Assembly: GCA_028867785.1 (NCBI GenBank)
Contig: JAGWFS010000003.1
Coordinates: 1-64,000, forward strand
DNA from: Nitrososphaerota archaeon
GTDB taxonomy: Archaea > Thermoproteota > Nitrososphaeria > Nitrososphaerales > Nitrosopumilaceae
Reading direction: 5' to 3'
Length of the DNA stretch: 64,000 bases
The notes under the pieces were generated by a model that saw only the letters and a list, made by a program, of their open reading frames with translations, was not told the origin of the DNA and did no database searches. Shown here one piece after another: positions 2,930 to 21,946 of the stretch (positions are counted from its first letter, which is position 1; every line of letters starts with the position of its first letter). The translations under genes and the position numbers were made by a program.

Positions 2930-3123
2930 GGTGCCAAAATAATTTGATACCATTTAAGGGCGTAAAGATGGGTGTGTTTAATTCTTCTATTGGATGCAAA
3001 TGATGGTCTATCAGTAATGTAAAATCAAGCACTGGTAAATTAGTGTGAGATTTTCTGACCTGAAATGAATTGTAAAGTTACGGTGGATTTTTGAGGATTA
3101 GAAAGCAAGTGTAAAGATAAGGA

Positions 3124-5093: not shown

Positions 5094-5172
5094 TTTGCGA
5101 TCACCTGAGACTCTACGTCAAACACTGTAAAATTCATTGCGATTCCTTATTATTATAAAGCATACTATTCTA

Positions 5173-5400
5173 CTATGGTACATTTTTCCTGATTAAAATA
5201 GACGGCAATTCGGCGTTTTTCTTTCCCTCCTCCTTGCATTTTATAATCCACCTTATCCTGCCCTCATCTAATTTTACCATGGGTATGCCACGGTAATCAC
5301 GTATCCAATAGTATGGGTATAGTACTCTTCTAACTAGGGGATGAAATGATTTCCGGAAAAGATAGCCATACACTGGAATAATTAGAGGTTGAAGTCTCAT
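5173..5400 (-). pseudogene. Remnant possibly from an IS481-type transposase N-terminus
   Basis: A 75-codon frame starting at ATG 5400, 13 bases after the winged-helix gene stop. Its end (VKLDEGRIRWIIKCKEEGK) resembles the first helix of the helix-turn-helix in archaeal IS481-like transposases, but the frame stops just after it. The longer upstream frame to 5523 would overlap the winged-helix gene by 110 bases and is unlikely. Probably a degraded fragment; a small genuine gene cannot be excluded. Confidence 0.3.
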
Positions 5401-5413
5401 CAGCAAAAAAAGA

Positions 5414-6034
5414 TCAGTTTGTTTGCTCTCCCCCCAACTCAAAGCCCTCCAGTGCCTCTGAGAATACGTCAAGCTCCCTTTCCTCAAGGTTGTCAAGCCA
5501 GACCTCAAGCCTCTTGAAATCACCTCCGTACCTTGACATCAGATCCTCCCATGTCCCCCTGCTTATCCCTATTGCCCTCTTTGTCAGTTTTACCGCAAAC
5601 CCCTTTCTTGTAATCGATGCAAATATCCATACTAGGTAGCGCCTGGAATAGTACCGTTTTAGAATGCCCTCAAAGGTAGAGTGCATGTAAAAACCTGTCT
5701 TTCCTGCACTTGCATATCTCTTGTGCGTACAGCAGGCACAGGCAAGTATGCACATCTCAAGAAAAGAGATCTTCAGGGCAAGACATACTGCATACCACCT
5801 TCCAAGGTCTGTCAGCGAAAATGTCCTGTCCTGGTTACATCTTACAAAGTTCCTTTTTTTGAGCCTTGAAACAGTCACCTTTGCACTGCTTCCAATTGTA
5901 CCGCGAATTTCCGCAAGTGTCTTTTTGTTGTCAGGGTAGAGGGCCTCTAGCAGCTTGGATGAACGCGAGCCAGGCAGCAGCCTTGTGTTGCCGTGGTTGT
6001 ATGCCCACAGCCTCTTTCGGGCAGGCCTTATCAT
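5414..6034 (-). CDS. Winged-helix DNA-binding protein, 206 aa
   Basis: Residues about 20-80 form a winged-helix domain (SKLLEALYPDNKKTLAEIRG, then KVTVSRLKKRNFVRCNQDRT, then a FSLTDLGRW wing). The middle is hydrophobic with several Cys, and the end is acidic. Its ATG overlaps the ParB-like stop by four bases (ATGA). As the third gene of a TFB-like/ParB-like operon it probably binds the same DNA, as a regulator or partition factor. No closer family recognised. Confidence 0.6.
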   Translation of the reverse strand: MIRPARKRLWAYNHGNTRLLPGSRSSKLLEALYPDNKKTLAEIRGTIGSSAKVTVSRLKKRNFVRCNQDRTFSLTDLGRWYAVCLALKISFLEMCILACACCTHKRYASAGKTGFYMHSTFEGILKRYYSRRYLVWIFASITRKGFAVKLTKRAIGISRGTWEDLMSRYGGDFKRLEVWLDNLEERELDVFSEALEGFELGGEQTN

Positions 6035-7059
6035 CTTGGAGATATCATGACAAGCCGCAACGGTACGCCGTCTTTGAGGCTTGAGGCAAACTTTGCAAGC
6101 TCTTTTTTTGATCTTATCTTGAGAAACCTAAGCGAGTCACCTGACTCTACACCAAGAAAATTTACTGTTCCCTCAGGTATGGCATATACGGGCTCGCTCT
6201 GGCCCTCCTCTTCCAGCCTGATGCACCGGTTCTTGGCGTCGTCTCTGACACTTGAGACCTGGCGTGTCTTGGTATTGAGCAGCAGCTTCTTGCCACAGCT
6301 GCATTGTACAAGGCTGTCATGCGGCGTGTTGCGCACGAGCTCTTCTGCCTCCTCCCTGTTTATTTTTGGCCAGCCTTTTTCAGATTCTTTTGGCTCAAAG
6401 ACGGTTGCCTTCTTCTCATGATACCTTGGTGCAATTGTACGCAGGATCATCTCAAGGTCCTGTGGGGCTGGAAAGACAAACTTGCTCTCCCTGACAGGAA
6501 GAAGCGAGTCTGTAAGGACCGCGGTTCCTGTAAGCTGCTCCTTCTCTGACTCGAACTGGGCAATTCTTTCTACTACATGCAGGGGCAGCTCGACGCTAGA
6601 GTATCTTTTGGACGCATCTGCAAGAAACTCGTCCCACCTGGCACGCACCTTGGGATAGATGTTCTTCTCTGCAAGCTCAAGGTATCTCTTGGGAACAGAC
6701 TGTGCCGCGTTATGCTTTTGAAGGAACCGCACAGCATCTATCATCTTTAGAGGATTGATTGATCCCCGCCTGTTAAGCTCGATGTGCAGCCTTACTACAT
6801 CTGAGATCTCCTTTGCAGTAACGAGATATGCACTGGTCGAATTCCTGCCTGCTTCCTCAAGCGCTCTTGCTCGCAGGTGCCCGTTTGCTATATACATGGA
6901 ATCTCCAAGCACCGCAACTGAGATGGGCTCTATATGCTCAGGACGTGTCCTTGCTACGCTTACAAGATCCCTCAAGAGTTTGTCAGTCTGCAGCGTTACC
7001 CTTACAGGGCATGGCTTTAGCTTTGAGATCTCGACTATCTCTTCATCAAATTTGTACAT
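6031..7059 (-). CDS. ParB-like protein, 342 aa
   Basis: The N-terminal ~120 residues match the ParB/sulfiredoxin-like domain: DEEIVEISKLKPCPVRV, then PISVAVLGDSMYIANGHLRA with the characteristic GH(L)R box, then ARALEEAG. The central part is helical (NRRGSINPLKMIDAVRFLQK, as in the ParB helix-turn-helix segment). A CSCGKK pair and beta-rich C-terminus follow. ParB-like proteins bind centromere-like sites or act as nucleases or CTPases in segregation. It overlaps both neighbours in a tight operon, which supports a partition role. No ParA is visible in the window. Confidence 0.7.
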   Translation of the reverse strand: MYKFDEEIVEISKLKPCPVRVTLQTDKLLRDLVSVARTRPEHIEPISVAVLGDSMYIANGHLRARALEEAGRNSTSAYLVTAKEISDVVRLHIELNRRGSINPLKMIDAVRFLQKHNAAQSVPKRYLELAEKNIYPKVRARWDEFLADASKRYSSVELPLHVVERIAQFESEKEQLTGTAVLTDSLLPVRESKFVFPAPQDLEMILRTIAPRYHEKKATVFEPKESEKGWPKINREEAEELVRNTPHDSLVQCSCGKKLLLNTKTRQVSSVRDDAKNRCIRLEEEGQSEPVYAIPEGTVNFLGVESGDSLRFLKIRSKKELAKFASSLKDGVPLRLVMISPR

Positions 7060-7870
7060 ATAGTCTTGCTCCCCTTACTGCAAGGTCAAGTGCCCTGTGG
7101 GCCCTGACATCTTCCCGTCTGTCGCTTATCTTCTGAAGGTTTGCAAATGCCTGGCGCTCTATTGTATCATACAACTGTCCTGTGCCGATATCATCCTGCA
7201 GCCTTGATAGCATCAATCGCACGTAATAGCTTGCCTTGTCGTGGTTGCAATCGATTCCAAGCTCCTGTGCCGTGATCTCATTTAGCGAGTATGATTTCAG
7301 TATAGTAAAAGTGCGCTTGACTCCAAAGTTCATCCTGACTGCCTCAAGTATCTGCTTGTCGGACCTTGGCAGTCCGTATTTTCTGCATACAAGATGGACC
7401 GCAAATGTGGCAATGTGAGCTCTTGTGCAGCCCTTCGGCCTTTCTCTTTTGAGGTCGGCAAGATTCTCCTCCTGTTTGAGATCTTTCTGTGCAAGTGTTG
7501 AGAGTTTTTTCAATTTTTCAGCGTGTTCCTGCCTTTCTTTCTGCTTCTGACGCAAGATCTTTTGGTATACGGCATTTGCATCCTGTGCTGCGTAGATTGG
7601 AAGGTCAAGCTTTACGCAGACGTTTGAGAGCTGCGAGATGTCGGAGTTGTTCTCGTGGATGTGCCTTGCGCAGTCAAGGTTTACTTTTTTTGTGCCAACC
7701 TCGGTTGCCTGATACAGGTTCAGCTTCGAGCCTGATGGCGCTTCCTGCAGTTGGTAGTCATTGCCAAGGACTGCGCCGCAGCTGCTGCAGCAGACCTCGC
7801 TTTCTGCAATGCAGAGCCTTGTGCCTGCGCAATGTGGACATGCTCCGTAAGAAAGAAGGTCGTTTATCAT
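7046..7870 (-). CDS. Divergent TFIIB-like protein, 274 aa
   Basis: The first ~35 residues form a TFIIB zinc ribbon (CPHCAG...CCSSCGAVLG). They are followed by a linker with a long charged coiled-coil (about residues 95-135), then cyclin-like helices (CTRAHIATFAVHLVCRKYGL) and a second helical repeat. It is about 270 residues, slightly short, and the coiled-coil insert is unlike a housekeeping TFB. I chose ATG 7870, with GGAGTG just upstream, over the in-frame GTG at 7879. It heads the ParB-like/winged-helix operon. A TFB relative there may act on partition or plasmid transcription rather than as a general factor; this is inference. Confidence 0.7.
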   Translation of the reverse strand: MINDLLSYGACPHCAGTRLCIAESEVCCSSCGAVLGNDYQLQEAPSGSKLNLYQATEVGTKKVNLDCARHIHENNSDISQLSNVCVKLDLPIYAAQDANAVYQKILRQKQKERQEHAEKLKKLSTLAQKDLKQEENLADLKRERPKGCTRAHIATFAVHLVCRKYGLPRSDKQILEAVRMNFGVKRTFTILKSYSLNEITAQELGIDCNHDKASYYVRLMLSRLQDDIGTGQLYDTIERQAFANLQKISDRREDVRAHRALDLAVRGARLYVQI

Positions 7871-8087
7871 CTTGTACACTCCGTAATTGTAATTTCTCTG
7901 AGATCCCAGTACGAAGACTGCAGTAGAATATCTGGACTCTGGCAGCTTTTTTGATTCTCTGGCCAGACACAGTTGTGTAATTTGAGCGGGATTCCAATTC
8001 CTCTCCCTGCATTGGTAATACGTGGTAAACTTGTCTTTAACATGTTAATAGCATGCAATAAATTCCTTATAAGGGTTATTTTTATGA

Positions 8088-8161: not shown

Positions 8162-8512
8162 ATGAACAAGCCAAAACGCAAGCCAACAGTAGCAATTGAG
8201 GAGGCAATATACTCAAAGGCAAAGGCAAAGGCAGAAGAAAAGGGCATGACGTTGCTTGACTATGTAAATGAGACGTTGTTGCTCAATGTGGAAAAGGACG
8301 ATTTTCTAAAAAGATATGCTCCGTACATTGAGAAGATAAATGTAGGCCATACGCTAGTTCTTCGGGATCACAAGATAAACAAGGTGGTTGAGATCTTTCT
8401 CAAGAACAACACGCTATATTGTTCACATGATGAGTCCGGTGACTGTATGCATATCCATTTTGCACTTGCAATACCTGAGATTGCAAGGCTCAAGATCAAG
8501 AGTACAAAATAG
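8162..8512 (+). CDS. Ribbon-helix-helix protein with Cys/His C-terminal domain, 116 aa
   Basis: N-terminus KPTVAIEEAIYSKAKAKAEE-GMTLLDYVNE is a typical MetJ/Arc ribbon-helix-helix DNA-binding fold. The C-terminus carries YCSHDESGDCMHIHFALAIP, a Cys/His pattern shared with the next gene. Such short RHH proteins are common in thaumarchaeal accessory DNA. It is probably a regulator acting at the inverted repeat upstream; the C-terminal module may bind zinc. Nine bases separate it from the next gene. Confidence 0.7.
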   Translation: MNKPKRKPTVAIEEAIYSKAKAKAEEKGMTLLDYVNETLLLNVEKDDFLKRYAPYIEKINVGHTLVLRDHKINKVVEIFLKNNTLYCSHDESGDCMHIHFALAIPEIARLKIKSTK

Positions 8513-8521
8513 GTACGGATT

Positions 8522-8896
8522 GTGGCATCAATGGTACAGTGGGATACGCTTCGGATTCCACATGAACTGATGGAGGAGCTTGAGAAGTTCTTGGAATCAG
8601 CAGTTGCAAAAAAGACTGGTTTTACAAGCGAGACGCAGGCAACAACTGCCGCGATGAGGGAGTTTATTCAGAAATATTCCAAGAGATTTGAACACGTCAA
8701 TACCTATGAGGACAAGGTGAGAATCTTGGACAATAACATTGGCAAGCGTGGCGATATTGTTACTTTCCAGTTCAAGGGAAAAGTGGCTTTTTGTGATTAT
8801 TGTGAGTCGAACAATCGCATACATGTGAAATACTGTTGGGAGATTCCACAAGTTGCTGAAGTTTTAAAAAAACATGATCTTAGACTTTCAGATTAG
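8522..8896 (+). CDS. Ribbon-helix-helix protein, paralogue of the previous gene, 124 aa
   Basis: The N-terminus (DTLRIPHELMEELEKFLESA, then TSETQATTAAMREFIQKYS) is a clear ribbon-helix-helix. The C-terminus (FCDYCESNNRIHVKYCWEIP) aligns with the preceding protein, so the pair arose by duplication or forms a heteromeric repressor. GTG at 8522 or ATG at 8531 may be the start; both leave the RHH intact. Probably one operon with the upstream gene. Confidence 0.7.
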   Translation: MASMVQWDTLRIPHELMEELEKFLESAVAKKTGFTSETQATTAAMREFIQKYSKRFEHVNTYEDKVRILDNNIGKRGDIVTFQFKGKVAFCDYCESNNRIHVKYCWEIPQVAEVLKKHDLRLSD

Positions 8897-9196: not shown

Positions 9197-9233
9197 TTTA
9201 TATATTTCTATAACACAACAATTTTGTTGTGTT
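9197..9233 (+). promoter_or_regulatory. Promoter with 10-base inverted-repeat operator
   Basis: A TATA box TTTATATATTT (9197..9207) is followed by a palindrome with arms AACACAACAA (9212..9221) and TTGTTGTGTT (9224..9233) separated by TT. The palindrome lies between TATA box and ATG (9239), overlapping the expected transcription start, as expected for a repressor site. The HTH-ImmA protein in the same operon is the obvious candidate repressor. Confidence 0.65.
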
Positions 9234-9238
9234 AGCTA

Positions 9239-9679
9239 ATGATACCAGATTTCGATTCCAAAGGGAATTTGCCGCCAGGGATTCATCAAGTTTCATGGAA
9301 GGAATTCAAGACGCGGTTTGGTCACAATCATTATCGGAAGAGGCTGGTTGATGGAATGAAACTGGCTTTCGAGAATCTCAAAAAAGCTGGATGCAAAACA
9401 GTTTATGTCGATGGTAGTTTTGTAACCGACAGACATCGACCTAAGGATTATGATGGATGTTGGGATCCGACCGGGGTAAATTTCGATGATTTAGATCCTG
9501 CATTCCAAGACTTTAGTCGTGGTACAACTGCTCAGAAACTAAAGTTTCGTGGAGAGTTATTTACAGTTACTATGAATAGCCCAAAAGGAACTATGTTAGA
9601 ATTTTTTCAAAACGATAGAGATGGCGACCCAAAGGGAATAGTAGTTATCAATTTAGGTGATTTTAATGATAAAGAATGA
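9239..9679 (+). CDS. DUF6932 nucleotidyltransferase-like protein
   Basis: A 146-aa protein with the DUF6932 signature: LPPGIHQVSWKEFKTRFGHN at the N-terminus and VYVDGSFVTDRHRPKDYDGC around residue 60. The GS...DxD arrangement is that of the nucleotidyltransferase fold. Family members occur next to HTH-type antitoxin genes, so a toxin-like nucleotidyl transfer is possible. It is first in the operon behind a palindromic operator, and its end overlaps the HTH-ImmA gene by 14 bases. The substrate is unknown. Confidence 0.65.
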   Translation: MIPDFDSKGNLPPGIHQVSWKEFKTRFGHNHYRKRLVDGMKLAFENLKKAGCKTVYVDGSFVTDRHRPKDYDGCWDPTGVNFDDLDPAFQDFSRGTTAQKLKFRGELFTVTMNSPKGTMLEFFQNDRDGDPKGIVVINLGDFNDKE

Positions 9680-11114
9680 GAGACAATACAAAATAACGAG
9701 ATCACGGGTTGAGAAGTTCAAAGAAACTCTTTCCAACTTTGAAAGTACCAAAAAAATATCACCACATGTTGATCCACGATTTCATAAGCTTGAGCGAGAT
9801 GCTTTACAAGGTCAATTGTTAACTCTAGAAAGGGAAATTCAAGAATATGAAGATCTTAAGACAGGCAAGATTCCAATAATGGAATTGTTGACTTTTGAGG
9901 ACTTGCCTACTACATTGATTAAATCTAGAATAGCATTGGGTCTAAGTCAAAAAGATCTAGCTGAACGTATAGGCTTACCAGAACAGCAGATACAACGCTA
10001 TGAATCAACTGACTATGAATCGGCTAGCATGTCACGCATAAAAGAAATAATCAATGTGCTTCAATTAGAAATAGAGAAACTTGGATTGCCTAGGAAAAAA
10101 GTTGACTTGAAATTATTTTTCAAGAAGCTTGCTAATGTTGGATTAGATCAGAAATTTATCACAAAACGCATTCTAACTCCGTCGCTTGTAAATCGTATTG
10201 ACAGAGGAAATGATTTTCCTGAATTACTTAGTCTTCAAGCGGCTTCGTACGTAGGAAGAGTATTTGGTTGGGAAACTGATCAGATTCTAGGCACAGATCC
10301 TCTGACTTTAGAGCCTATTCCAGTGAAATTTAAAGTGCCAAAAACAGCTAACACTTTGAAAGTTCATGCTTACAGTGTCTACGCACATTACATCGCAATT
10401 CTCATGGCACAAGCTACTAGTCATCTGAAAAGTAAAACTATTCCAACAAATCCATATCAAATGCGCGAAGAAATCCTATCTTCTTATTCCACTATATCTT
10501 TTAGAAATCTTATTGATTATGCGTGGAAACTTGGAATTCCAGTGATGGGATTAGATCCCACTTCGTTTCACTCTGCCTGTTTCCGTAGCAATGATAAGAG
10601 CGTTATTGTACTTACTCAGAAAACGTCTTCAGAAGCACGTTTGATGTTTAACCTCATACATGAACTATACCACGCTATTTCTGGCTTGGAGAGGATTGAT
10701 TTTGAAAACGAACTTGATAATTCAGAAGATGAAGAGGAAAGATTGGCAAACCAATTTGCTCATGCAGTGCTTTTAGGGAAAAATGCAGATAGTCTTCTCA
10801 ATACTTGCCTTGAAAATTGTGTAGTTGGCGAAACCCAAAATCTGTCTTTTCTAAAAAAATCGGTAGAGAGAGTTGCCTCTGAAGAAAAGGTGCGAGTAGA
10901 TGTGCTTGCTAATTATATAGCACATCGTCTTTCCTCAGAAAAAATTTTTAATTGGTGGGGAGTAGCCGAAAATTTACAAAAACCGTTAAAGGACGCTCGA
11001 GTTATTCTAAGAGACGCCATGCTAGAGTATGCCGATTTAAGCACTTTGTCACCCCCTGATCTGGAGTTGCTAAAACAGGCATTAAGCACAGAGGAGGTTA
11101 CAGATGGCGAGTAA
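9666..11114 (+). CDS. XRE-type HTH protein with ImmA/IrrE metallopeptidase domain
   Basis: About 482 residues. A coiled N-terminus is followed by an XRE helix-turn-helix near residues 85-135 (RIALGLSQKDLAERIGLPEQ), a helical linker, and an ImmA/IrrE-type protease with HELYH near residue 330 and downstream acidic residues (NSEDEEERLANQFA). ImmA-like proteases cleave repressors or antitoxins. I chose ATG 9666 with AGGTGA five bases upstream; an in-frame GTG at 9657 is possible. It likely represses the palindromic promoter and derepresses the operon on a stress or phage signal. Confidence 0.75.
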   Translation: MIKNERQYKITRSRVEKFKETLSNFESTKKISPHVDPRFHKLERDALQGQLLTLEREIQEYEDLKTGKIPIMELLTFEDLPTTLIKSRIALGLSQKDLAERIGLPEQQIQRYESTDYESASMSRIKEIINVLQLEIEKLGLPRKKVDLKLFFKKLANVGLDQKFITKRILTPSLVNRIDRGNDFPELLSLQAASYVGRVFGWETDQILGTDPLTLEPIPVKFKVPKTANTLKVHAYSVYAHYIAILMAQATSHLKSKTIPTNPYQMREEILSSYSTISFRNLIDYAWKLGIPVMGLDPTSFHSACFRSNDKSVIVLTQKTSSEARLMFNLIHELYHAISGLERIDFENELDNSEDEEERLANQFAHAVLLGKNADSLLNTCLENCVVGETQNLSFLKKSVERVASEEKVRVDVLANYIAHRLSSEKIFNWWGVAENLQKPLKDARVILRDAMLEYADLSTLSPPDLELLKQALSTEEVTDGE

Positions 11115-11739
11115 CTATACAGACGACTGGAAGAAACGTCCTGAACCAATCAAGAAAAAGGTAATCATGTGCGGAGAAACAAGATGTGAAGAAGGTCGAC
11201 ATTCCTTCAAGACTAACATGAGAAAAAAGGCTGCTAGATTAGAAAAGAAGACCTATCGAAATGGTAGCTGCATTTGTTGTAATGAAGAATTTGATATCGA
11301 CTGGAAACGAATTGATAATAGAGATTTGGGAGATGTAAAATACTTAGTTAGTAAACTGAAACTGGAGGCTGTACGATATGATTTTTGGGAGATTCCAGTT
11401 GAAGAAAAAGATTTTGATACTGCAAAAAAGAAAGGATTGCTATTGCTGCGCAAAGAAATACGAAAAAGAGTTGAAAAAGCATTGGCTCCACCATCGCATA
11501 AAATTTATCAAGACGGACGACAAACTCCTAAATCTGGAAATATAATTTACTATGCGCAATATGCTATGGCGACTTGCTGTAGAAAATGTGTTGAGGAATG
11601 GCACGGTATTGATAGGAAAAAACAACTTAAGAAAAAGGACATTGAATATATCTCAGGGCTCATTCTATATTATATAAAAAAGAGATTTCCGACCATCAAA
11701 GAAGAGGGATTACTTGAAGAACCAATTATCAAAAGGTAA
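11104..11739 (+). CDS. DUF4186-type Cys-rich protein
   Basis: 211 residues. The N-terminal half has paired Cys (CGETRC, CICC), suggesting a metal site. The C-terminal half matches my recollection of DUF4186: QDGRQTPKSG, AQYAMATCCRKCVEEWHGID, then a helix. The TCCRKC...WH cluster would bind zinc or take part in catalysis. It overlaps the preceding gene by 11 bases and the radical SAM gene by 26, so all are co-translated. Function unknown; co-occurrence with radical SAM and methyltransferase genes suggests a shared modification pathway. Confidence 0.55.
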   Translation: MASNYTDDWKKRPEPIKKKVIMCGETRCEEGRHSFKTNMRKKAARLEKKTYRNGSCICCNEEFDIDWKRIDNRDLGDVKYLVSKLKLEAVRYDFWEIPVEEKDFDTAKKKGLLLLRKEIRKRVEKALAPPSHKIYQDGRQTPKSGNIIYYAQYAMATCCRKCVEEWHGIDRKKQLKKKDIEYISGLILYYIKKRFPTIKEEGLLEEPIIKR

Positions 11740-12739
11740 GATTGATACCTATAGTTTATCCCTAAAATACAGACAAGCATCAGTAGATTTAGAAAACAGG
11801 AAAATTCTCATAACTAATTTTCAAGGAACTGAACAAGAAAAGGACTTTAAAGAATCTGCCAACTGCAATGGTTTTGGAAGAATTAGACACTTTGAAATCT
11901 CTGGATCAAATAGTTGGCCGGAAAATCCACTACCAATTGAACCTGCTAGAAAAGCATTAAGACTTCCACCTACGTCTACATTGAGAGCCCAGGTGTTTCA
12001 AAATGCCGTTTGCAATTGGCGATGTTGGTACTGTTATGTTCCCTTTGACCTTCTTTCTGCCAACCAAAAACATTCTAGATGGCTATCAGCCTCAGAACTT
12101 GTTGAATTGTACTTGAAACAAGTAAATCCCCCACCTATGATTGATTTGAGCGGTGGGCAACCAGATCTAATTCCTGAATGGGTACCATGGATGATGTATG
12201 AATTAATTTCCCGAGGTTTAGAGAATAAAGTGTTCTTGTGGTCTGATGACAATCTAAGCAATGACTATTTTTGGAAATATCTTAAGAAATCAGATATTGA
12301 GCTGATCCGTACTTACAAAAATTATGGCCGAGTGGGTTGTTTCAAAGGCTTTGATGAAATTTCATTTTCCTTTAACACCATGGCTAATCCCAATTTGTTT
12401 TACAACCAGTTTGAATTAATGAAAAAATTCTTGTCGCTAGGCATTGATCTCTATGCCTATGTGACGCTAACATCACCAACAGATGAAGATATTGACTCAA
12501 AGATCTGTAGTTTTGTAGATAAACTCCAAGAACTTGACCATTATTTCCCTCTAAGAACAATTCCATTAGAGATTAGAGTTTTCACACCTGTAAGATCACG
12601 CATTGACAACTTCTCAAGTAAAGCAATCAAAAACCAAATTCTTGCCGTGAATATATGGCAAAGAGAAATTAAATCAAGATTTTCAGATAAAGAACGTTCG
12701 ATTCCAATTTATGAAGTCCCCGTAGGAGTTGCTTGTTGA
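11714..12739 (+). CDS. Radical SAM enzyme of unknown substrate
   Basis: A 341-aa enzyme with a [4Fe-4S] motif CNWRCWYC (Cys100, Cys104, Cys107), i.e. CxxxCxxC, followed by the SAM-binding DLSGGQPDL near residue 142. It should generate a 5'-deoxyadenosyl radical. There is no obvious SPASM or Elp3 extension. The TTG start at 11714 lies inside the DUF4186 gene, 6-10 bases after GAGGG. It is next to a DPPWY methyltransferase-like gene and an ASCH gene, which points to nucleobase, nucleoside or peptide modification. No closer family assigned. Confidence 0.7.
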   Translation: MKNQLSKGKIDTYSLSLKYRQASVDLENRKILITNFQGTEQEKDFKESANCNGFGRIRHFEISGSNSWPENPLPIEPARKALRLPPTSTLRAQVFQNAVCNWRCWYCYVPFDLLSANQKHSRWLSASELVELYLKQVNPPPMIDLSGGQPDLIPEWVPWMMYELISRGLENKVFLWSDDNLSNDYFWKYLKKSDIELIRTYKNYGRVGCFKGFDEISFSFNTMANPNLFYNQFELMKKFLSLGIDLYAYVTLTSPTDEDIDSKICSFVDKLQELDHYFPLRTIPLEIRVFTPVRSRIDNFSSKAIKNQILAVNIWQREIKSRFSDKERSIPIYEVPVGVAC

Positions 12740-13152
12740 TTTTGTACAAAAATGAAACTGTGTTTTTCTATGAAAAGATAGATTATTGGATCCTAGATTC
12801 GGTGAGATCTGGAATAACAAATTTTGATGATCTTCTTACCTCTTTACCTGGAGTATATCCAACTATCGTTAAGGATTCAATTGAAAGACTAGTGTCACGT
12901 GGGATATTATCCGAATCTTTAATTGATATGCCTAGATATGACAACCTCAAAAAAATACCTATTTCTTCAAAATTTGTATCACACATTCCTCACCCACTTG
13001 ACTTTGATTGGCGATTTAGTCATTCAACCGTTTCAAAACTTTTGCGCTATCTTAATTCACTAACGAAAGAACGCGACAGGATAGCTTTGTTAGGAACTCC
13101 TAGCTTTCTTGGGGCTGGATTAGCTAAATTCAGAAGAAATTTGTTATGGTAA
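12733..13152 (+). pseudogene. 5' part of an interrupted winged-helix/methyltransferase gene
   Basis: The frame starts at TTG near 12733, overlapping the radical SAM stop, with AGGAG just upstream. It has a winged-helix-like segment (residues 1-60: VRSGITNFDDLLTSLPGVYP, DSIERLVSRGIL) and then enters a methyltransferase-like fold (RIALLGTPSFLGAGLAKF). At codon LL it is cut by an IS1595-like element and ends two codons later. Deleting the element and one copy of its 8-base duplication restores a continuous 415-aa frame with the 14060..14892 segment. Confidence 0.8.
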
Positions 13153-14051
13153 TTGTAATCCTACTGCCCCTTAATAAAATGGGACAAAAATATGGATTCA
13201 GTGAGAATAGAAGAACTGGTAAAGATCCTAGGCAATGAAAGGAGCACCGTCAAGTATCTTTTTGAAAAGAAAATCTCTAGAGATGCTGTACACTGTCCCT
13301 TCTGCAACTACACAAAATTCTACCTCATGGGCAGAAAAAGAATTCGATGCAGGAGATGCAGAAAGGACCATGACTTTCTAAAACCTACATGGTTTGGCAG
13401 GCTCAGAATCAGCTATGCAAAGTGGCTCCTTCTTATCAAGCTCTTCGAAGTGGGCACCAGTGCAAGGACCGCCAGCTCCCAAGCAGGTATAGGATACCCT
13501 GCCGCCCTCAAGTCATATGACATCATGCGTATCTCGATTCTACACCAGCTTGCAAGACAAAAGAGGATCCTAAGGGGCCAGATCGAGGCTGATGAGGCGT
13601 ATTTTGGAGGCAGGAGAAAGGGAAACCGTGGCAGAGGTGCCAGAAACAAGACCATCGTGTTTGGCATCCTGGAAAGGGGAGGCAGGGTCTATGTCAGCGT
13701 AGTACCAAATGTCAGTGCAGATACTCTGAGTGACCAGACAGTCAGGAAGGTAAGGCGTGGCAGCATCGTATACACTGACAGGTGGCACGGATATGATTCT
13801 CTGATGTTTTGCGGATACAAGCATCTCAGTGTAGACCACAAGTACAAATTCAAATCAGGCAAGGTCTACATCAACGGGATAGAAGGATTCTGGTCGTTTG
13901 CAAAGGAGAGGCTGATAAAGCACCATGGCATCAGCCCACACAAGTTCCTACTCTACATCAAGGAGATGGAATGGAGATACAATAACAGAAAGAATAATTT
14001 GTTTGATCTATTGATAGATTACATGCTAGGGGCAGTTAAATTATAATCACC
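13148..14051 (+). mobile_element. IS1595-like insertion sequence, 904 bp, complete
   Basis: Both ends are visible. Left inverted repeat 13148..13170 and right inverted repeat 14029..14051 match at 18 of 23 positions (GGTrATTrTAAT..., ending ACTGCCCC). The element is flanked by a perfect 8-base target duplication TTTGTTAT at 13140..13147 and 14052..14059. Eight-base duplications are usual for IS1595. It looks recent because ends, duplication and transposase are intact. Confidence 0.9.
13192..14046 (+). CDS. IS1595-family transposase (ISXO2-like)
   Basis: 284 residues. An N-terminal zinc ribbon (HCPFCNYTK...RCRRCRKDHDF, about residues 31-62) precedes the ISXO2-like DDE domain. Acidic residues are seen in IEADEAYFGG, in VYTDRWHGYDSL and in GIEGFWSFAKERL. 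It catalyses transposition of the surrounding element. The length is normal and the frame is intact, so it is probably active. Its base composition is less AT-rich than the interrupted gene. Confidence 0.9.
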   Translation: MDSVRIEELVKILGNERSTVKYLFEKKISRDAVHCPFCNYTKFYLMGRKRIRCRRCRKDHDFLKPTWFGRLRISYAKWLLLIKLFEVGTSARTASSQAGIGYPAALKSYDIMRISILHQLARQKRILRGQIEADEAYFGGRRKGNRGRGARNKTIVFGILERGGRVYVSVVPNVSADTLSDQTVRKVRRGSIVYTDRWHGYDSLMFCGYKHLSVDHKYKFKSGKVYINGIEGFWSFAKERLIKHHGISPHKFLLYIKEMEWRYNNRKNNLFDLLIDYMLGAVKL

Positions 14052-14052
14052 T

Positions 14053-14892
14053 TTGTTATTTTTTGACAAAAATACAGAATCACAACATAATATCTACCCA
14101 AATCTTAGTTGCTACAAATGTGATATTCTAAGAGATGCTTTACCGCAAATTGAAGTCGAGACGGTTTTGGCAGATCCTCCGTGGTACCCAAAACACATGC
14201 ATGGGTTCATGTGGTCTGCCTCAAAAATTACCAAAATTGGAGGTTACGTATTATTTTGTTTACCTCCAGAGGGTACTAGACCGGATGTGGGGAACGAGAT
14301 CTCAGAATTTATCTCATACGCAAAGAAAATAGGTTTCAGTTTGCTAAGGTACACCAAAGGGATCTTATCTTATTCCACACCACTTTTTGAAAACAATGCT
14401 CTACGAGCAGATGGAATTATTGATATTGGAAAAGATTGGAGAAGAGGCGATTTAGCGTTATTTTACAGGGTTAAGAAAACAAATTTTGCTAGACCATCTA
14501 CCTTTCCTGATGAGGAATGGACAGAGGTTATAATTGGCGATATCAGGATAAGAGTCAGATCTTCCAAATCAATTGAATTCCGAGATCCTCATTTAATATC
14601 GGTCATTCCTAATGATATTCTTCCATCTGTAAGTAGAAGAGATGATAGAAGGAAATTGGCCGATGTTTGGACTTCGGGAAACCGTATTTTTGCATGTAAC
14701 GGAACAAATATCCTGATACAGATCCTCATGGCAAAATCGCTGAACCTGTCTACAACTAACTCGGTATCTACTTTCTTAAAGCGAGATCTAACGACGGAAG
14801 AGATAGCCTTGGTTTTCTCAACGTCTCGACAAATTGATGAATTGGTCAAGTGTGAGCAAGAGGAAATAGATTATTATCATTATTCAAACTAG
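14053..14892 (+). pseudogene. 3' part of the interrupted methyltransferase gene
   Basis: This fragment opens inside the target duplication (TTG at 14053) and continues the frame broken at 13147. It contains VETVLADPPWYPKHMHGFMW; DPPWY is the catalytic motif IV of amino- or base-directed class I methyltransferases and also occurs in polyamine-synthase relatives. GGYVLFCLPPEG follows as the next strand. Before insertion the gene would have encoded winged helix plus SAM-dependent domain. The fragment could be translated from TTG but lacks the SAM-binding first half, so it is probably inactive. Confidence 0.8.
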
Positions 14893-14901
14893 TTATCTTA
14901 T

Positions 14902-15411
14902 ATGATGAAATGTTCATCTCTGATAGATACTCTTAGTAATTCAGTAAAAGATGACGCTTACTGGAATGATTTTTTCAAAATAAAAAATCGAGATGGGTTT
15001 CCCACTGGAATTCATTTAGCCGTATTTGTAGAACCATACCTTACCTTCATACTACAAGGCAAAAAAACAGTAGAATCTAGGTTCTCTTCAAATCGTATTG
15101 CTCCATATCAGAAAGTTAACAGAGGTGATATCATTATTTTAAAACGTTCTGGCGGTCCCATTTTTGGATTATGTGAGATTTCTGAGGTTTGGTCTTATCT
15201 CCTAGATGCCAAGTCATGGAAACACATCAAAAAAGAATTTACGATATCACTTTGTGCACAAGATCCTAACTTTTGGAGTCAGCGAAGCCATGCTTCTTAC
15301 GCTACTTTAATGAGAATTAAAAATGTGAGTAAGATAGAGCCGATCAATTGGAAAAAAAACGACCGTCGAGGCTGGGTAGTGCTTCATAATAAAACCCCTG
15401 ATAACAGATGA
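14902..15411 (+). CDS. ASCH-domain (PUA-like) protein
   Basis: 169 residues. Residues about 35-85 carry the ASCH core: HLAVFVEPYLTFILQGKKTV, ESRFSSNRIAPYQKVNRGD, IIILKRSGGPIFGLCEISEV. ASCH domains bind modified or unmodified nucleic acid or nucleosides, and some are nucleases or amidohydrolases on modified bases. It is the last gene of the plus-strand operon, 9 bases after the broken methyltransferase gene, consistent with recognition or processing of a modified nucleobase. Confidence 0.75.
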   Translation: MMKCSSLIDTLSNSVKDDAYWNDFFKIKNRDGFPTGIHLAVFVEPYLTFILQGKKTVESRFSSNRIAPYQKVNRGDIIILKRSGGPIFGLCEISEVWSYLLDAKSWKHIKKEFTISLCAQDPNFWSQRSHASYATLMRIKNVSKIEPINWKKNDRRGWVVLHNKTPDNR

Positions 15412-15416
15412 TTTTC

Positions 15417-15971
15417 TTAGCCTGCTAAAAAATTTTGAATTGTCATATCAGCAGTAGAACAAACTTTATCAAAAGGCAGCGATGCATCTATGGTCAAATT
15501 AGAATATTCTTTTAATTTGTCAATACCACGTTCTATCGGATGATCATCAATCTCTGCGAATTCTGCTAGTGAAAGATTATCAGATCCTATGTATCTTCCA
15601 TATCTGAGAAATCTCAAATCTCTCCGCGCATCAAGAAAAATCAAAAGTGTTTTTTGAGAAATGTTTTTGATCTCTTCGAAAACGGACTCATGTCTTACGC
15701 CATCGAAAATCATGGTTTCAGAGTTAACACTGCCAGAATGATCTATAGCTATTTCAAGTATTTTTCTTGCTCCGCTTGAGATAAACAAATCGTATCCAAA
15801 ATCTTGCAGTTGCTTACGAGTATTGATTTTGCTAGTTTCACCTACTTTATCTTTAATCATTTTCCCAAATGAGGTTACAGGAATTTTAAATTCATTAGAT
15901 AAATGTTTGATTAATGATGTCTTTCCTGAACTTATTTTCCCACATATTAGAATTGAATATTTGTATTTCAT
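15417..15971 (-). CDS. P-loop nucleotide or nucleoside kinase, 184 aa
   Basis: A Walker A motif GKISSGKTS is at residues 11-19, followed by SFGKMIKDKVGE, as in dNMP and dephospho-CoA-type kinases. MIFDGVRHESVFEEI matches the Walker B/substrate strand, and LDARRDLRFLRYGRY the lid arginines. It probably phosphorylates a small metabolite, perhaps a (deoxy)nucleotide. It lies one base downstream of the TylF-like methyltransferase gene, so the two are co-transcribed, convergent with the radical SAM operon. Confidence 0.65.
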   Translation of the reverse strand: MKYKYSILICGKISSGKTSLIKHLSNEFKIPVTSFGKMIKDKVGETSKINTRKQLQDFGYDLFISSGARKILEIAIDHSGSVNSETMIFDGVRHESVFEEIKNISQKTLLIFLDARRDLRFLRYGRYIGSDNLSLAEFAEIDDHPIERGIDKLKEYSNLTIDASLPFDKVCSTADMTIQNFLAG

Positions 15972-15972
15972 T

Positions 15973-16890
15973 TCAAATTTTTAAAAATACTCCAGTTCCA
16001 TAAAGGTTTAGGACATTCTTATCTCTAAAAAATTCTGAAGCTGCTATACGTTCACCCAATGTATAGAGCCATCTTTCATCACAACAATAATGATCAAAAG
16101 CAATTATTCCACCCTTTACCGTTTGCCTATAGCACATATCAAGAGCATCTCGGGTTGGGGAATAGTTATCCGTATCAAAAAATGATAAGACAAGAGGAAT
16201 TCCTTCTATTCTGCAATATGTCTCAGATATGTCTCCTTTTACAAGTTCTATGTTAAATGGTTCGCAATAACTAATGACAGAATCAAAATCTGAGAATTCG
16301 TCGTGTGGATCATCATACATGTCAAATACAGACTTTCGTTTTGGAAACCCTTGGAATGTATCAAAGGCAAAAATCTTTGCTTTAATTCCTAACTTTTCTA
16401 CTATCCTAGCTAAAAAAACAGTGGTACCGCCTTTGTATACTCCAAACTCTGCAATATCTCCTTTCAATCCGTTTTTTGCGATATAATCTAACGATTGATA
16501 AAGATGAATAAGCATGTTCTTGTATCCAAAAGCTCTTGGTGAGGTGACACTAGATGATAAGGTATCATGATACAGATGATCTTTGAAATCTAGATGACCA
16601 ATTCCAGCCATTATTATTTTTGGTTTTCTATTATCTATTGTCGAGAATATCTTGAGAATTTCTTCTTTATCATTATCAGAAACAATAACGAGAGTATCAA
16701 ACTGTAGTTCATTTATTGACTTAGGATTCATTACAATAAAATTTTCTATCTTACATCCTTGAAGTTCTTTATTAGAATCAATAATACCACAAATTTTCTC
16801 TGCTGTACCGTTCATTAGCATTCGTTTAATCAAAGTAATAGCATTTTCATTATATCCCCAGAATAGAATAGAGGTTTTCTCCTTTGGCAT
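15973..16890 (-). CDS. TylF/MycF-like O-methyltransferase with N-terminal Rossmann domain
   Basis: 305 residues. The first ~110 (TSILFWGYNENAITLIKRML, DTLVIVSDNDKEE) resemble a nucleotide-binding domain of the PglD or CoA-binding type. Residues from about 120 form a TylF-like methyltransferase: GDIAEFGVYKGGTTVFLARI (SAM motif I), AFDTFQGFP, and SFFDTDNYSPT with the metal-binding Asp pair. TylF enzymes methylate sugar hydroxyls of secondary metabolites. Here it may decorate a nucleoside or glycan; the substrate is unknown. Confidence 0.75.
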   Translation of the reverse strand: MPKEKTSILFWGYNENAITLIKRMLMNGTAEKICGIIDSNKELQGCKIENFIVMNPKSINELQFDTLVIVSDNDKEEILKIFSTIDNRKPKIIMAGIGHLDFKDHLYHDTLSSSVTSPRAFGYKNMLIHLYQSLDYIAKNGLKGDIAEFGVYKGGTTVFLARIVEKLGIKAKIFAFDTFQGFPKRKSVFDMYDDPHDEFSDFDSVISYCEPFNIELVKGDISETYCRIEGIPLVLSFFDTDNYSPTRDALDMCYRQTVKGGIIAFDHYCCDERWLYTLGERIAASEFFRDKNVLNLYGTGVFLKI

Positions 16891-17351: not shown

Positions 17352-17366
17352 TTGTCGACAACTAGC

Positions 17367-18290
17367 ATGGGTTCTGCCATAGAAATACTTAGACAGCGTT
17401 ATTTTATCGATCATAAATCAGAAACTAGAACATTCATTACAGAAGAATATACAATCATAGCTAGAGACGACGACATAGATAACATATTCTTGGAAGTGCC
17501 ACGATTTTTGATAAATCTGAGAATTTTTGATTCAGATGAAGAGGGATTGCCATTAATTCCTAATGATTATACCTTCGCACTACTTGAAAACAGAATTGAG
17601 AGATTAAGCGGTCAAGAAAAGAGCATCCTAGAAAACTTGTACGATGATCTACGCAATCATAGGAAATACATGCTGTGGATTAAGATGCCTCCAACTAAGA
17701 AACTACAAAAAGATCAATTAAGAATAATTACGTTAGAATATGATGCTGAAAAAGTTAAAAATCCGTCGAAAAAACTGGAACTGGATTTTCCTTCACATCA
17801 AACACATAATGTGTTTTATGTGATTCGTACGCCTGAAGATTACGAATTTGAAAACAAGGATATTGAGATTATAGAAAAAAATGGAAGAAAATTCAAGTAT
17901 AAAGGAAATAACGAAAAAGATGATCCCATTTACTTGAGCGAGGGATTTGATTCAATCGCTATAACAAAAAAATCAGAAATATCAAGCCCAATGAAAATAA
18001 GCTATTCGTTCAGACCTGATCGTGGAATTACCAAATTTCCAGTTACATTAGCAGGACTTTTGTCTTTGCCGCCTATAATGATCCTATTCTACAGAACGTG
18101 TGGCGCATGTATTGGACCTTTGCCACCTAATGCATCTGTTTTATTTGATCATCAGATAGAAATTGGTTTAGGAATATTTGCCACCTCACTTGTAATTCCT
18201 ACTCTGATCAATAATCAGCGGATTAGAAATTCCTTAAAAACCATTTTCTACTTGCCCATAATCTTAGCCTTGTTATTGTTACTTGGATAG
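17367..18290 (+). CDS. Protein with cytosolic domain and C-terminal membrane anchor
   Basis: About 307 residues. The first ~220 are charged and soluble (REFs not recognised; contains LSGQEKSILENLYDDLRNHR). The last ~85 hold three hydrophobic helices (TLAGLLSLPPIMILFY, IGLGIFATSLVIPTLI, TIFYLPIILALLLLLG). ATG 17367 fits a TATA box near 17330; an in-frame TTG at 17352 is less likely. The layout of soluble sensor plus membrane helices is that of membrane-disrupting effectors in cyclic-nucleotide defence systems. With a cyclase gene 1.2 kb downstream I infer a possible effector role. Confidence 0.55.
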   Translation: MGSAIEILRQRYFIDHKSETRTFITEEYTIIARDDDIDNIFLEVPRFLINLRIFDSDEEGLPLIPNDYTFALLENRIERLSGQEKSILENLYDDLRNHRKYMLWIKMPPTKKLQKDQLRIITLEYDAEKVKNPSKKLELDFPSHQTHNVFYVIRTPEDYEFENKDIEIIEKNGRKFKYKGNNEKDDPIYLSEGFDSIAITKKSEISSPMKISYSFRPDRGITKFPVTLAGLLSLPPIMILFYRTCGACIGPLPPNASVLFDHQIEIGLGIFATSLVIPTLINNQRIRNSLKTIFYLPIILALLLLLG

Positions 18291-19508: not shown

Positions 19509-20807
19509 ATGTCAAGCTCACAAAAGAAAGAAACTGACCTGCTTACTCCAGATCAATTTGAAAAATTTATCATATCAATTCCACAAATCACTGTGATAGA
19601 ACATAATAGAAAAATCCACAAAGCAGATTGGCCCATATCAAGTAAAGAATTTCAAATGTTGTTTAAGATGACTTATTATTGTGCGTTGGGTATATCTGAA
19701 ACATTAAAACTTCACAAATCTGACATTGACTTAACTCGCAAAATTGTTTCTATTAGAAAATCTGTTGGAGTTCACGAGGAAACAAGTATTCCTCCTATAT
19801 TTATAGATGAACTCGAAGAATATTTGAAATCTCATGAGAAAAAACTTTTTCAAACAACAAGGGGGAGTGCATGGAACTATGCAATTGCGGCAGCAAAAAT
19901 TGCAGGATTGAATTTGCGTGAAGAAAGAAAAGTAAAAGATGTCCGTAAAATATCACTTCTCATATTCAAAAAATCATGGGGACGACGAATGCAAAAGGAT
20001 GATGCAAGTGACAAATTGATCGCTATTAAATTGAGAAAAAAATCACAACTTAGTGACAAATGGCCAATTTATGATATTAAAGAATTAATTGATTGGGAAG
20101 AGAAAAAATATCCTTCCAAGAAAAAAGGATTAGTTATCTTACTAGATGCATTAGGAATCAAAGGAATATGGAAAGGTAATAGTCCAACAGATGTCCAACA
20201 TGACTGGAATACTGTCATTACCAATTGTCGCTCAATGGTTAAGGAGCTCACAACAATAGGATTATCTACTACCTTCAATGCTTTTTCTGATACGGTTGTC
20301 ATTACGGCATCGGGTTCTGATATTAAAATTTTAATCACTAAAATGGCTGAGACACTTATAAAAACTATGGAAGTAGCGATTGCTCATGATATTTTTTTCC
20401 GAGGTTGTATTAGCATAGGCGAATTCTTTCCTGATCCAAACATAATTGTAGGAAAAGCCATTGATGATGCTGCACAATATTATCAAATGCCAGAATGGAT
20501 AGGAATTTCAGTAACTCCAAATTCTCATAAATTAATAGATTCCATTGGTTTTCATACTGAGAAAAACAAAGGCTTGTTTGTCGAATATGATATCCCATTA
20601 AAAAATACAATTGAAAAGAAAGGGATGGCTTTGAATTGGCCTACTCATGTTATAAATATTGGAAAATTAGCAGGGGAGTCTGAAAACTCACACTCACAAA
20701 CATTGAGAGAATTGGTGGAAACAAAAATAGAAAATTCTGACGACATAAATGTATCATTCAAATGGCGAAATACCTTGAATTTCATCGATTATGTTACAAT
20801 TAATTGA
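19509..20807 (+). CDS. Degenerate tyrosine-recombinase fold fused to a class III nucleotide cyclase domain
   Basis: 432 residues in two parts. Residues about 50-185 follow the tyrosine integrase catalytic fold (FKMTYYCALGISETLKLHKS, DIDLTRKIVSIRKSVG, KVKDVRKISLLIFKKSWG), but the first catalytic Arg is replaced by Gly and no active-site Tyr is seen, so it is probably a DNA- or DNA-end-binding module. Residues about 205-400 are a class III cyclase: GLVILLDALGIKG with metal-binding Asp213, FNAFSDTVVITAS with Asp261, and FFRGCISIGEFFPDPN. Pycsar cyclases have this style of core. I infer cNMP production triggered by foreign DNA. An IS element abuts its stop codon without changing the protein. Confidence 0.7.
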   Translation: MSSSQKKETDLLTPDQFEKFIISIPQITVIEHNRKIHKADWPISSKEFQMLFKMTYYCALGISETLKLHKSDIDLTRKIVSIRKSVGVHEETSIPPIFIDELEEYLKSHEKKLFQTTRGSAWNYAIAAAKIAGLNLREERKVKDVRKISLLIFKKSWGRRMQKDDASDKLIAIKLRKKSQLSDKWPIYDIKELIDWEEKKYPSKKKGLVILLDALGIKGIWKGNSPTDVQHDWNTVITNCRSMVKELTTIGLSTTFNAFSDTVVITASGSDIKILITKMAETLIKTMEVAIAHDIFFRGCISIGEFFPDPNIIVGKAIDDAAQYYQMPEWIGISVTPNSHKLIDSIGFHTEKNKGLFVEYDIPLKNTIEKKGMALNWPTHVINIGKLAGESENSHSQTLRELVETKIENSDDINVSFKWRNTLNFIDYVTIN

Positions 20808-21946
20808 GGCTTGGGCATTATTCACATCAAAAAATAATGCTAGTTACCAAGCATCTGTCTGATACATCGTGGCTTATCACTACCTGCTATACAGTTGTAG
20901 TATACCGATATCTGGTATACAAACACACACATTAGCAGATAAGATGTGACATTCTCAGATCCAATTACAGGTGAGCTAGATATTCCAAACGTACCCTTGA
21001 TGCACTCAAACAACGGCTCAACGGATCTGCTTCTGGCACGGTATATCCTCTGACCTTTTCTTGATCTGTAGAACCATATCAATTCCAGCCTCTCACCTTT
21101 GGTATGGCGGTACCTTCGTATGGGGCAGACAAGTCTTGCCGCGCGCTGTCTGGTATAATCATACAGCTTCCAGTCATCGTATCCAGCATCTGCTACGACA
21201 TACCTGATGCAGTCTGGCAGCGGCTCCACCAGACCACGGTACACCTGGTTGTCATAGACATTTGCAGTTGTCACAGATGCTGACAGTGGCACTACCATCT
21301 GTCCAGTACTGCACGAGATGTGCAGCTTGTATCCGAACTGCCATCCCTTGGTTGCAGAAAATCCCCACCCTGCATCTGTATCGATGCCAGGCCTTGGAAC
21401 GGTACCCTGTATCATCTGCTTTCTGTGCCAGATGTGGCCGTTTCTTGCACGTATTGTAGAACTGTCAACAGATACAATGGATGCATCAGCAAGTGATTCC
21501 GTGACAAATCTTGCACCCATTGCTGATATGATGGAACCGACTGGCAGTACCTTGAACCTGCGGTCAAACGTCCTGCGGTCTGGCAATGCATCTAGGCCGC
21601 ATGCTTTCATCACCTTCTGGTTGTATGATACATCGATTGAAAAATACTGATGCAGGCAGTTGTTGGACGGTATCCTCATCCAAATTCGTACTACATAGCA
21701 CCGCAGGATTACCGTTGTAGGATAGACGTATGGTCTGCCCCTCTTCTTGTCATCATCCCTATACAACGATAACAAACCAATCAGATACAATATATCAATA
21801 AGGAATGATTCCGTTGGTATCTTGCTAAAGGACCCTCGCTTGATGTGCATCTGAACAGTGAATATCAGGAGAGGAGATCCTTAGCTGTTTCTATTAAATC
21901 AATTTTGTATCATGGTAAAATTAGCGTGGAATTATGCCCAACCCTC
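20806..21946 (-). mobile_element. IS5-family (ISH1-like) insertion sequence, 1141 bp
   Basis: The ends are inverted repeats starting GAGGCTTGGGCATTATTC (left, 20806) and GAGGGTTGGGCATAATTC (right, complement ending 21946), 16 of 18 matching. An 8-base duplication AATTAATT flanks it (20798..20805 and 21947..21954). Length and duplication size fit the ISH1 group of IS5. It inserted at the stop codon of the cyclase-fusion gene. Confidence 0.85.
20840..21850 (-). CDS. IS5/IS4-type DDE transposase, 336 aa
   Basis: A DDE transposase with SIVSVDSSTIRARNGHIW (first Asp), YVVADAGYDDWKLYDY (second Asp) and RSRSVEPLFECIKGTFGI (Glu with the family's Y/R-rich context). An N-terminal helical domain (FLIDILYLIGLLSLYRDDD) binds the ends. 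The frame is intact and spans nearly the whole element, so it is probably functional. Confidence 0.9.
   Translation of the reverse strand: MHIKRGSFSKIPTESFLIDILYLIGLLSLYRDDDKKRGRPYVYPTTVILRCYVVRIWMRIPSNNCLHQYFSIDVSYNQKVMKACGLDALPDRRTFDRRFKVLPVGSIISAMGARFVTESLADASIVSVDSSTIRARNGHIWHRKQMIQGTVPRPGIDTDAGWGFSATKGWQFGYKLHISCSTGQMVVPLSASVTTANVYDNQVYRGLVEPLPDCIRYVVADAGYDDWKLYDYTRQRAARLVCPIRRYRHTKGERLELIWFYRSRKGQRIYRARSRSVEPLFECIKGTFGISSSPVIGSENVTSYLLMCVFVYQISVYYNCIAGSDKPRCIRQMLGN

Follow-up and report, generated by a model that had tools for sequence, protein, structure and literature searches.

A rare seven-gene cassette with a conserved operator in archaea and many bacterial phyla: a candidate inducible anti-invader system

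What function is served by a cluster in which a DUF6932 protein, a helix-turn-helix (HTH) peptidase, a DUF4186 protein, a radical S-adenosylmethionine (SAM) enzyme, a transferase, an ASCH-domain protein and a P-loop kinase are encoded side by side? The question is raised by positions 9239-16890 of a 64,000-nucleotide stretch of contig JAGWFS010000003.1 from a Nitrososphaerota archaeon (the window), which comes from a genome of 2.5 Mb in 327 contigs (G000:C261), archaeal in its gene content, as seen in a TFIIB-like gene and in a TATA box of archaeal type. The original prediction, made from the sequence alone, described an operator-controlled operon for making or policing a modified nucleobase or nucleotide. 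In this study, the cluster is found to be a rare cassette of seven genes that passes between archaea and bacteria of many phyla and is usually carried by plasmids or located among genes for virus defence. We read it as a mobile, inducible anti-invader cassette making a modified nucleotide, with a probability of roughly 0.4.

The radical SAM protein alone was used as the query over 84,980 species genomes, and a total of 53 loci were found, spread over more than a dozen phyla of bacteria and one further archaeon. The usual order was DUF6932, HTH-M78 peptidase, DUF4186, radical SAM, methyltransferase, ASCH and kinase. Among loci with enough flank, the HTH-peptidase and DUF4186 were present upstream of the radical SAM gene in 41 and 40 of 45, respectively, and the kinase, ASCH and transferase genes downstream of it in 38, 37 and 33 of 42. 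The five core genes kept a common order, all on one strand, in 22 of 37 loci. Exceptions include fusions of methyltransferase with ASCH (L042, L043), of ASCH with kinase (L027) and of ASCH with DUF4186 (L011), the split arrangements of L020 and L034, and truncations. When 72,556 plasmid records were searched, the radical SAM enzyme, the full-length HTH-peptidase, the full-length DUF4186 protein and the ASCH protein were each found in the same seven and in no other, namely plasmids of Nostoc, Aulosira, Tolypothrix, Microchaete, Rhizobium and two Roseovarius, six of which were typed as conjugative. Co-occurrence of the homologues, whose absence had been named beforehand as refuting the prediction, is thus very strong. 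An 18.4-kb insertion holds the cassette in Tolypothrix PCC 7712 and is missing from the sister strain PCC 7601 (PMC9679502). No relatives of the radical SAM protein were detected in the phage genomes searched, nor in IMG/VR contigs, where exact peptide patterns were used and distant relatives could escape.

Among 300 genomes searched from the archaeal class of the window, the radical SAM gene was present in two only, that of the window and G135, in which all seven genes lie on one strand. The DUF6932 gene of G135 is frameshifted mid-gene (L086, G135:C1, about 5650-6107 of the reverse complement), with the operator and the six downstream genes intact. Both archaeal copies therefore carry one broken gene each, the other being the transferase gene of the window. 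In the class of G305, DUF4186 occurred in two of 345 sampled genomes, one of which was the starting genome. The radical-SAM tree is bushy, and the direction of transfer is not fixed by it.

A perfect palindrome, TAACACAACAATTTTGTTGTGTTA, lies downstream of a TATA-like box and ahead of the first ATG, that of the DUF6932 gene, and is the sole exact match in its own genome. With up to two mismatches allowed, ACACAAC-N6-GTTGTGT was present in 35 of 36 loci of the DUF6932 type, at or near the start of the first gene wherever that start was well defined (it is uncertain in a few loci), and gave 0 matches in 204 kb of control DNA from the same contigs. Its carriers comprise cyanobacteria, Planctomycetota, Acidobacteriota, Actinomycetota, Pseudomonadota, Myxococcota and others, and the palindrome is also perfect in the archaeon G135. 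None of the loci in which a DUF4160-like protein replaces DUF6932 had it; three of these carry another palindrome, TTAACAT-N2-ATGTTAA or near-identical. The operator predicted earlier has accordingly gained strong support. The conserved gene set, its mobility and this operator are observations of which we are almost certain. Autorepression of the operon by the XRE domain at the palindrome is the natural reading of these sequences and is strongly inferred. Use of one operator by archaeal and bacterial promoters alike would be a striking interdomain move of a whole regulatory circuit. An order kept across two domains, together with a conserved DNA switch of its own, is strong evidence for one function.

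The features of the window are listed in Table 1. Pfam analysis placed DUF6932, HTH_3 with Peptidase_M78, DUF4186, Radical_SAM, ASCH, a P-loop kinase-like protein and TylF where the original prediction had put them. For the HTH-peptidase, the true start is probably the ATG at 9666 rather than the GTG at 9657, as the family consensus opens with MIKNERQY.

Table 1. Features of the cluster and its promoter region in the window.
Feature	Position	Strand	Evidence
TATA-box-like TTTATATATTT, likely archaeal promoter of the operon	9197..9207	+	read in sequence; predicted
Operator palindrome TAACACAACAATTTTGTTGTGTTA at presumed transcription start	9211..9234	.	perfect palindrome
DUF6932 protein, Pol-beta-type nucleotidyltransferase motif GS-x9-DxD at residues 59-72	9239..9679	+	Pfam PF22014 1.8e-37
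XRE-type HTH fused to M78 (ImmA/IrrE) metallopeptidase, HExxH intact	9657..11114	+	HTH_3 2.7e-9, Peptidase_M78 (PF06114) 5.3e-7
DUF4186 protein	11104..11739	+	PF13811 1.1e-24
Radical SAM enzyme, cluster motif CNWRCWYC	11714..12739	+	PF04055 2.3e-7
Interrupted winged-helix + transferase gene, N-terminal part, codons 1 to ~136 of 415	12733..13139	+	reading across empty site
Target-site duplication TTTGTTAT, 8 bp	13140..13147 (left copy), 14052..14059 (right copy)	.	direct repeat flanking the insertion sequence
IS1595-family insertion sequence, 904 bp, terminal inverted repeats	13148..14051	+	ends and target duplication
IS1595-family transposase, 284 aa	13192..14046	+	DDE_Tnp_IS1595 1.2e-36; NF033547 2.3e-40
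Interrupted transferase gene, C-terminal part, DPPWY motif	14060..14892	+	reading across empty site; family fold BpsA-like
ASCH-domain protein	14902..15411	+	PF04266 3.9e-6
P-loop kinase, nucleoside monophosphate (NMP)/dephospho-coenzyme A/AdkA-like kind, DG[IV]RH motif	15417..15971	-	AAA_18 1.1e-5
TylF-like methyltransferase, upstream of the kinase; optional accessory	15973..16890	-	PF05711 1.8e-15

The transferase gene of the window is broken. Open reading frames (ORFs) 12733-13152 and 14053-14892 belong to a single gene, and the element between them has a DDE transposase, an 8-bp duplication and ends related as inverted repeats (GGTAATTGTAATCC.TACTGCCCC / GGTGATTATAATTTAACTGCCCC), all as expected of an IS1595-family insertion sequence (IS). 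A diverged partial copy (79%) on contig C294 stops matching exactly at base 904, the right end. The empty site, with the insertion near codon 136, reads as 415 amino acids with no stop and is 41% identical over 401 amino acids, end to end, to the intact G135 gene. Two separate methyltransferase-related genes were considered and rejected on this ground, and the 279-amino-acid "DPPWY methyltransferase" that had been called from 14053, with the transposase overlooked, is the C-terminal part of the split gene. Since the element interrupts the gene, that product is a fragment and the local enzyme is presumably dead; the remaining genes may still work, as in natural variants without the transferase. 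The proposal of a single operon of five plus-strand genes was borne out in part: the first five genes from 9239 overlap one another, the plus-strand genes overlap or abut, and the kinase and TylF genes converge on them, while the element cuts off ASCH and what follows.

The slot before the HTH-peptidase is occupied by DUF6932 or, in eight loci, by the small DUF4160-like protein (Pfam 0.00037, just under the cut-off). ThiF/E1-like and sigma-like proteins fill it in two Bacteroidota loci (L015:6003-7370 and L017:191-1558). In DUF6932, G59, S60, D70 and D72 were invariant in 25 homologues, and from the alignment GS-x9-DxD is read as a putative nucleotidyltransferase motif; a PDB profile search with DUF6932 returned nothing significant, and no publication on this family was found. 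In the HTH-peptidase family H335 and H339 are invariant and E336 is conserved in at least 90%; the HTH part is HipB/SinR/434-like, and the protein resembles RmrA (PADLOC) and the spr1629 antitoxin (NCBIfam). A related operator, TTACAAC-N6-GTTGTAA, occurs at the same position in DUF6932 and XRE modules preceding a "beta family" protein. Two such modules (L091:5956-8772 and L093:5956-8772) were seen on Agrobacterium and Sinorhizobium plasmids, with genes for a reverse transcriptase, a helicase and AAA proteins as neighbours. A portable control module is therefore what the front end of DUF6932 and XRE seems to be, and its earlier interpretation as a toxin or trigger module was reasonable, given that the pair recurs with a related operator before a different gene.

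This front end could also belong to plasmid or island addiction of a toxin-antitoxin-like kind, with the DUF6932 nucleotidyltransferase as toxin or activator, the HTH-peptidase as repressor and antitoxin, and the downstream enzymes as lesion or antidote. Such an arrangement would fit the nucleotidyltransferase motif, the pair found elsewhere without the downstream enzymes, the likeness to RmrA and the spr1629 antitoxin, and the DUF4160-like replacement at the same position. Classic modules consist of two small genes, however, whereas seven colinear genes across phyla suggest a chemical pathway, and the other six genes of G135 have stayed open although its DUF6932 is frameshifted; we consider addiction quite improbable. 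For the anti-invader cassette, we propose instead that the XRE domain represses the operon at the palindrome and that the fused M78 metallopeptidase would cleave the repressor upon a damage or infection signal, leading to derepression as with CapP on CapH and PprI on DdrO. A switch in which the peptidase cleaves its own or a sister repressor is, on this analysis, somewhat probable.

The chemistry downstream of the switch was approached through families, motifs and folds. DUF4186 has a putative zinc site at its N-terminus, C-x4-C-x4-H ... C-x2-C, and a second site, CCxxC...W, at its C-terminus; the Cys and His residues are invariant. Its AlphaFold2 model (pLDDT 88) had no fold match in PDB and a single match in BFVD, to a pithovirus protein (2.4e-6); it is apparently a new fold, also present as YneG of Escherichia coli. 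Across 42 homologues of the radical SAM enzyme, 45 alignment columns are invariant, including CNWRCWYC, and its nearest named families are viperin, QueE and MoaA, with weak likeness. This enzyme is single-copy in the genome of the window; an unrelated second radical SAM gene lies at 30833-32188 (HMPTM N-terminal zinc ribbon). The kinase profile matched the AdkA-like 3lw7 (3.5e-11), which places it in the AdkA/NMP-kinase superfamily, and the ASCH profile weakly matched PH0355 (2z0t, E 0.014). For the transferase a PDB profile search returned nothing significant; the leading Foldseek matches of its AlphaFold2 model (pLDDT 89) were all BpsA or a Pyrococcus furiosus relative, and together with a sub-threshold N6-adenineMlase match (0.0019) this gives a hint that an amine may be alkylated.

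Variation among the loci also bears on the chemistry. The transferase is optional, because six loci (L014, L025, L030, L039, L044 and L046) are without its gene, and the simplest form, L044, retains only DUF6932, HTH-peptidase, DUF4186, radical SAM and kinase. The window's order of TylF then kinase has a single parallel, in the Chloroflexi locus L011 (50% identical). A dGTPase gene follows the kinase by 12-36 bp in three loci (L004, L005 and L010), and a dCTP-deaminase-like gene lies inside the operon in L031 and downstream of it in L012; these neighbours tilt the guess to nucleotide chemistry. Two plasmids of alphaproteobacteria (L094:6908-9363 and L095:6992-9345) each carry a distant relative of the transferase (about 25% identity) whose gene overlaps that of a metallophosphoesterase, one of them adjoining an AAA/UvrD pair and an adenylosuccinate synthetase gene. 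The predicted making of a modified nucleobase or nucleotide has thus received indirect support only, from the NMP-kinase-like protein, the dGTPase and dCTP-deaminase neighbours in some loci and the weak likeness of the radical SAM protein to nucleotide-acting enzymes. We put even odds on a modified nucleotide as the product.

The same enzymes might instead modify nucleic acids, the radical SAM enzyme, transferase and kinase installing or preparing a hypermodified base in RNA (e.g. tRNA) or DNA that the ASCH/PUA-like protein reads, for self-protection or repair. ASCH belongs to the PUA superfamily, binding of modified bases is predicted for some ASCH and EVE domains (PMC7641849), and the DPPWY motif, the adenine-methylase-like match and restriction-modification genes in some flanks point the same way. 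Against this stand the lack of a conserved restriction partner, the dispensable transferase, a kinase that works on free nucleotides rather than polymers, and the fact that the operon showed no conserved gene for an RNA target, although no systematic search for one was made. Nucleic-acid modification is rather unlikely in our judgement.

The surroundings of the cassette were compared with position-matched controls from the same contigs. The 141 flanking proteins of 15 loci matched 281 PADLOC families at 1e-10, and 138 control proteins matched 43, mostly weakly. Very strong matches in the flanks comprised a CBASS (cyclic oligonucleotide-based antiphage signalling system) SAVED-PDDEXK effector, MkoA and MkoC (Mokosh), AbiEi and AbiEii, type IIG and type I restriction-modification and BilD, and Pfam also identified TOTE, Mrr, RadC and integrases. 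On location, a role in defence is probable. This enrichment in defence genes, and the lack of a conserved exporter, precursor peptide or immunity gene, speak against a small-molecule pathway that is induced by stress or damage and has no relation to viruses, such as antimetabolite warfare or detoxification, riding on mobile elements. A radical SAM enzyme, kinase and methyltransferase do resemble a short biosynthetic cluster, and the radical-SAM profile weakly matched SuiB (0.0095); such a pathway is nevertheless judged distinctly improbable.

Other neighbours within the window were recorded. A minus-strand run at 2090-7879 includes genes for an actin-like (MreB/Alp) and a TFIIB-like protein (the latter near 7.0-7.9 kb) and is possibly the remains of a plasmid or integrated element. 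Directly upstream of the operon (8162-8896) lie two small tandem genes with paralogous-looking products. Downstream are a protein with C-terminal hydrophobic helices (17352-18290), near it a 432-amino-acid protein (19509-20807) with, by eye, a recombinase N-terminus and a class III cyclase-like domain, and, 4 kb past the cluster, a further transposase-like ORF of IS5-type look (20840-21850). Pfam, PADLOC and PDB gave no support for the cyclase-like look.

Taken as an anti-invader cassette, the operon when switched on would let the radical SAM enzyme, with DUF4186, convert a nucleotide or nucleoside, and the kinase would phosphorylate substrate or product. The BpsA-like transferase (TylF in the archaeon of the window and in L011) would N- or O-alkylate as optional tailoring, the PUA-like ASCH protein may bind or process the modified base, and the product would poison, or mark against, the invader's nucleic-acid synthesis. 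Several points weigh against this interpretation. The nucleotide substrate is assigned by guilt by association; the anti-invader role is predicted from location only; the cassette does not consistently encode a nuclease or a killing effector; and the radical SAM protein falls far under the viperin cut-off (18.9 versus 180 bits). The flank comparison tallies families, not independent proteins, and overstates independence, although the contrast is large. The simple one-operon picture is disturbed by the insertion sequence between the promoter-proximal genes and ASCH onward, and by the kinase of the window lying on the opposite strand. The bolder view is of a categorically new kind of inducible immunity based on a modified nucleotide, made by a radical SAM enzyme together with DUF4186, a zinc protein of new fold, with archaea and bacteria sharing a portable unit that includes regulator and operator; it is doubtful at present. 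The cassette nonetheless offers testable roles for DUF4186 and DUF6932, and a candidate chemistry for a new antiviral nucleotide.

No described system was matched in PADLOC, NCBIfam, Pfam or the literature searched, which covered few subscription journals and preprints, and an earlier description elsewhere is possible; within this range the earlier statement that no named system has this gene set holds, PADLOC matching the front end only. The A subunit model of the two-gene PADLOC candidate PDC-M63AB (PDC-M63A) matches DUF6932 at 1.4e-11, none of the other proteins of the cassette matches it and there is no B subunit match; PDC-M63AB gave no defence in E. coli NILS69, the one test found (PMC12409345), a further point against an anti-invader role. 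The publications found on DUF4186 do not concern such a system, and YneG is a solo DUF4186 domain outside any such operon (PMC9283627). Membership of restriction-modification was rejected, since no nuclease family recurs at the operon to serve as the partner that such a system or base marking would call for. Nor does any downstream ORF (of at least 80 amino acids), precursor peptide or transporter recur, as would be expected of a radical-SAM cluster for ribosomally synthesised and post-translationally modified peptides. The closest fold of the transferase is the branched-chain polyamine synthase BpsA (5xnf, 6j27, 2qm3), with which it shares an N-terminal winged helix and a class I transferase (Foldseek E 2e-12 to 1e-9, TM-score about 0.6 on the target). 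Membership was rejected on 11-14% identity, no PF01861 match at E 0.01 (intact L009 protein) and differing motifs, GxPS and DPPWY. With the prokaryotic viperins (pVip) that come with a nucleotide kinase, and whose ddhNTP products halt viral transcription, the cassette shares a radical SAM gene beside a nucleotide-kinase-like gene in defence islands, but it adds conserved DUF4186, ASCH, transferase and HTH-peptidase; membership was rejected, the pVip match (7.9e-5) covering 71 residues only. The nearest parallel in control is with CapH-CapP, the controllers of immune operons of the CBASS and BREX (bacteriophage exclusion) type, and with PprI/IrrE-DdrO, both of which are triggered by single-stranded DNA (PMC13373217, PMC10904395) and likewise pair an XRE repressor with an M78-type metallopeptidase, at an immune-type operon. 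Like CapH-CapP, the cassette has a palindrome at the operon promoter (in 35 of 36 DUF6932-type loci and in no controls) and an M78 metallopeptidase with HExxH, the sequence likeness being weak (capP 1.2e-4, capH 2.3e-4). Whereas repressor and peptidase are separate proteins in CapH-CapP and ImmR-ImmA, they are joined here, in the window and its relatives, in one 485-amino-acid fusion with DUF6932 or DUF4160 in front.

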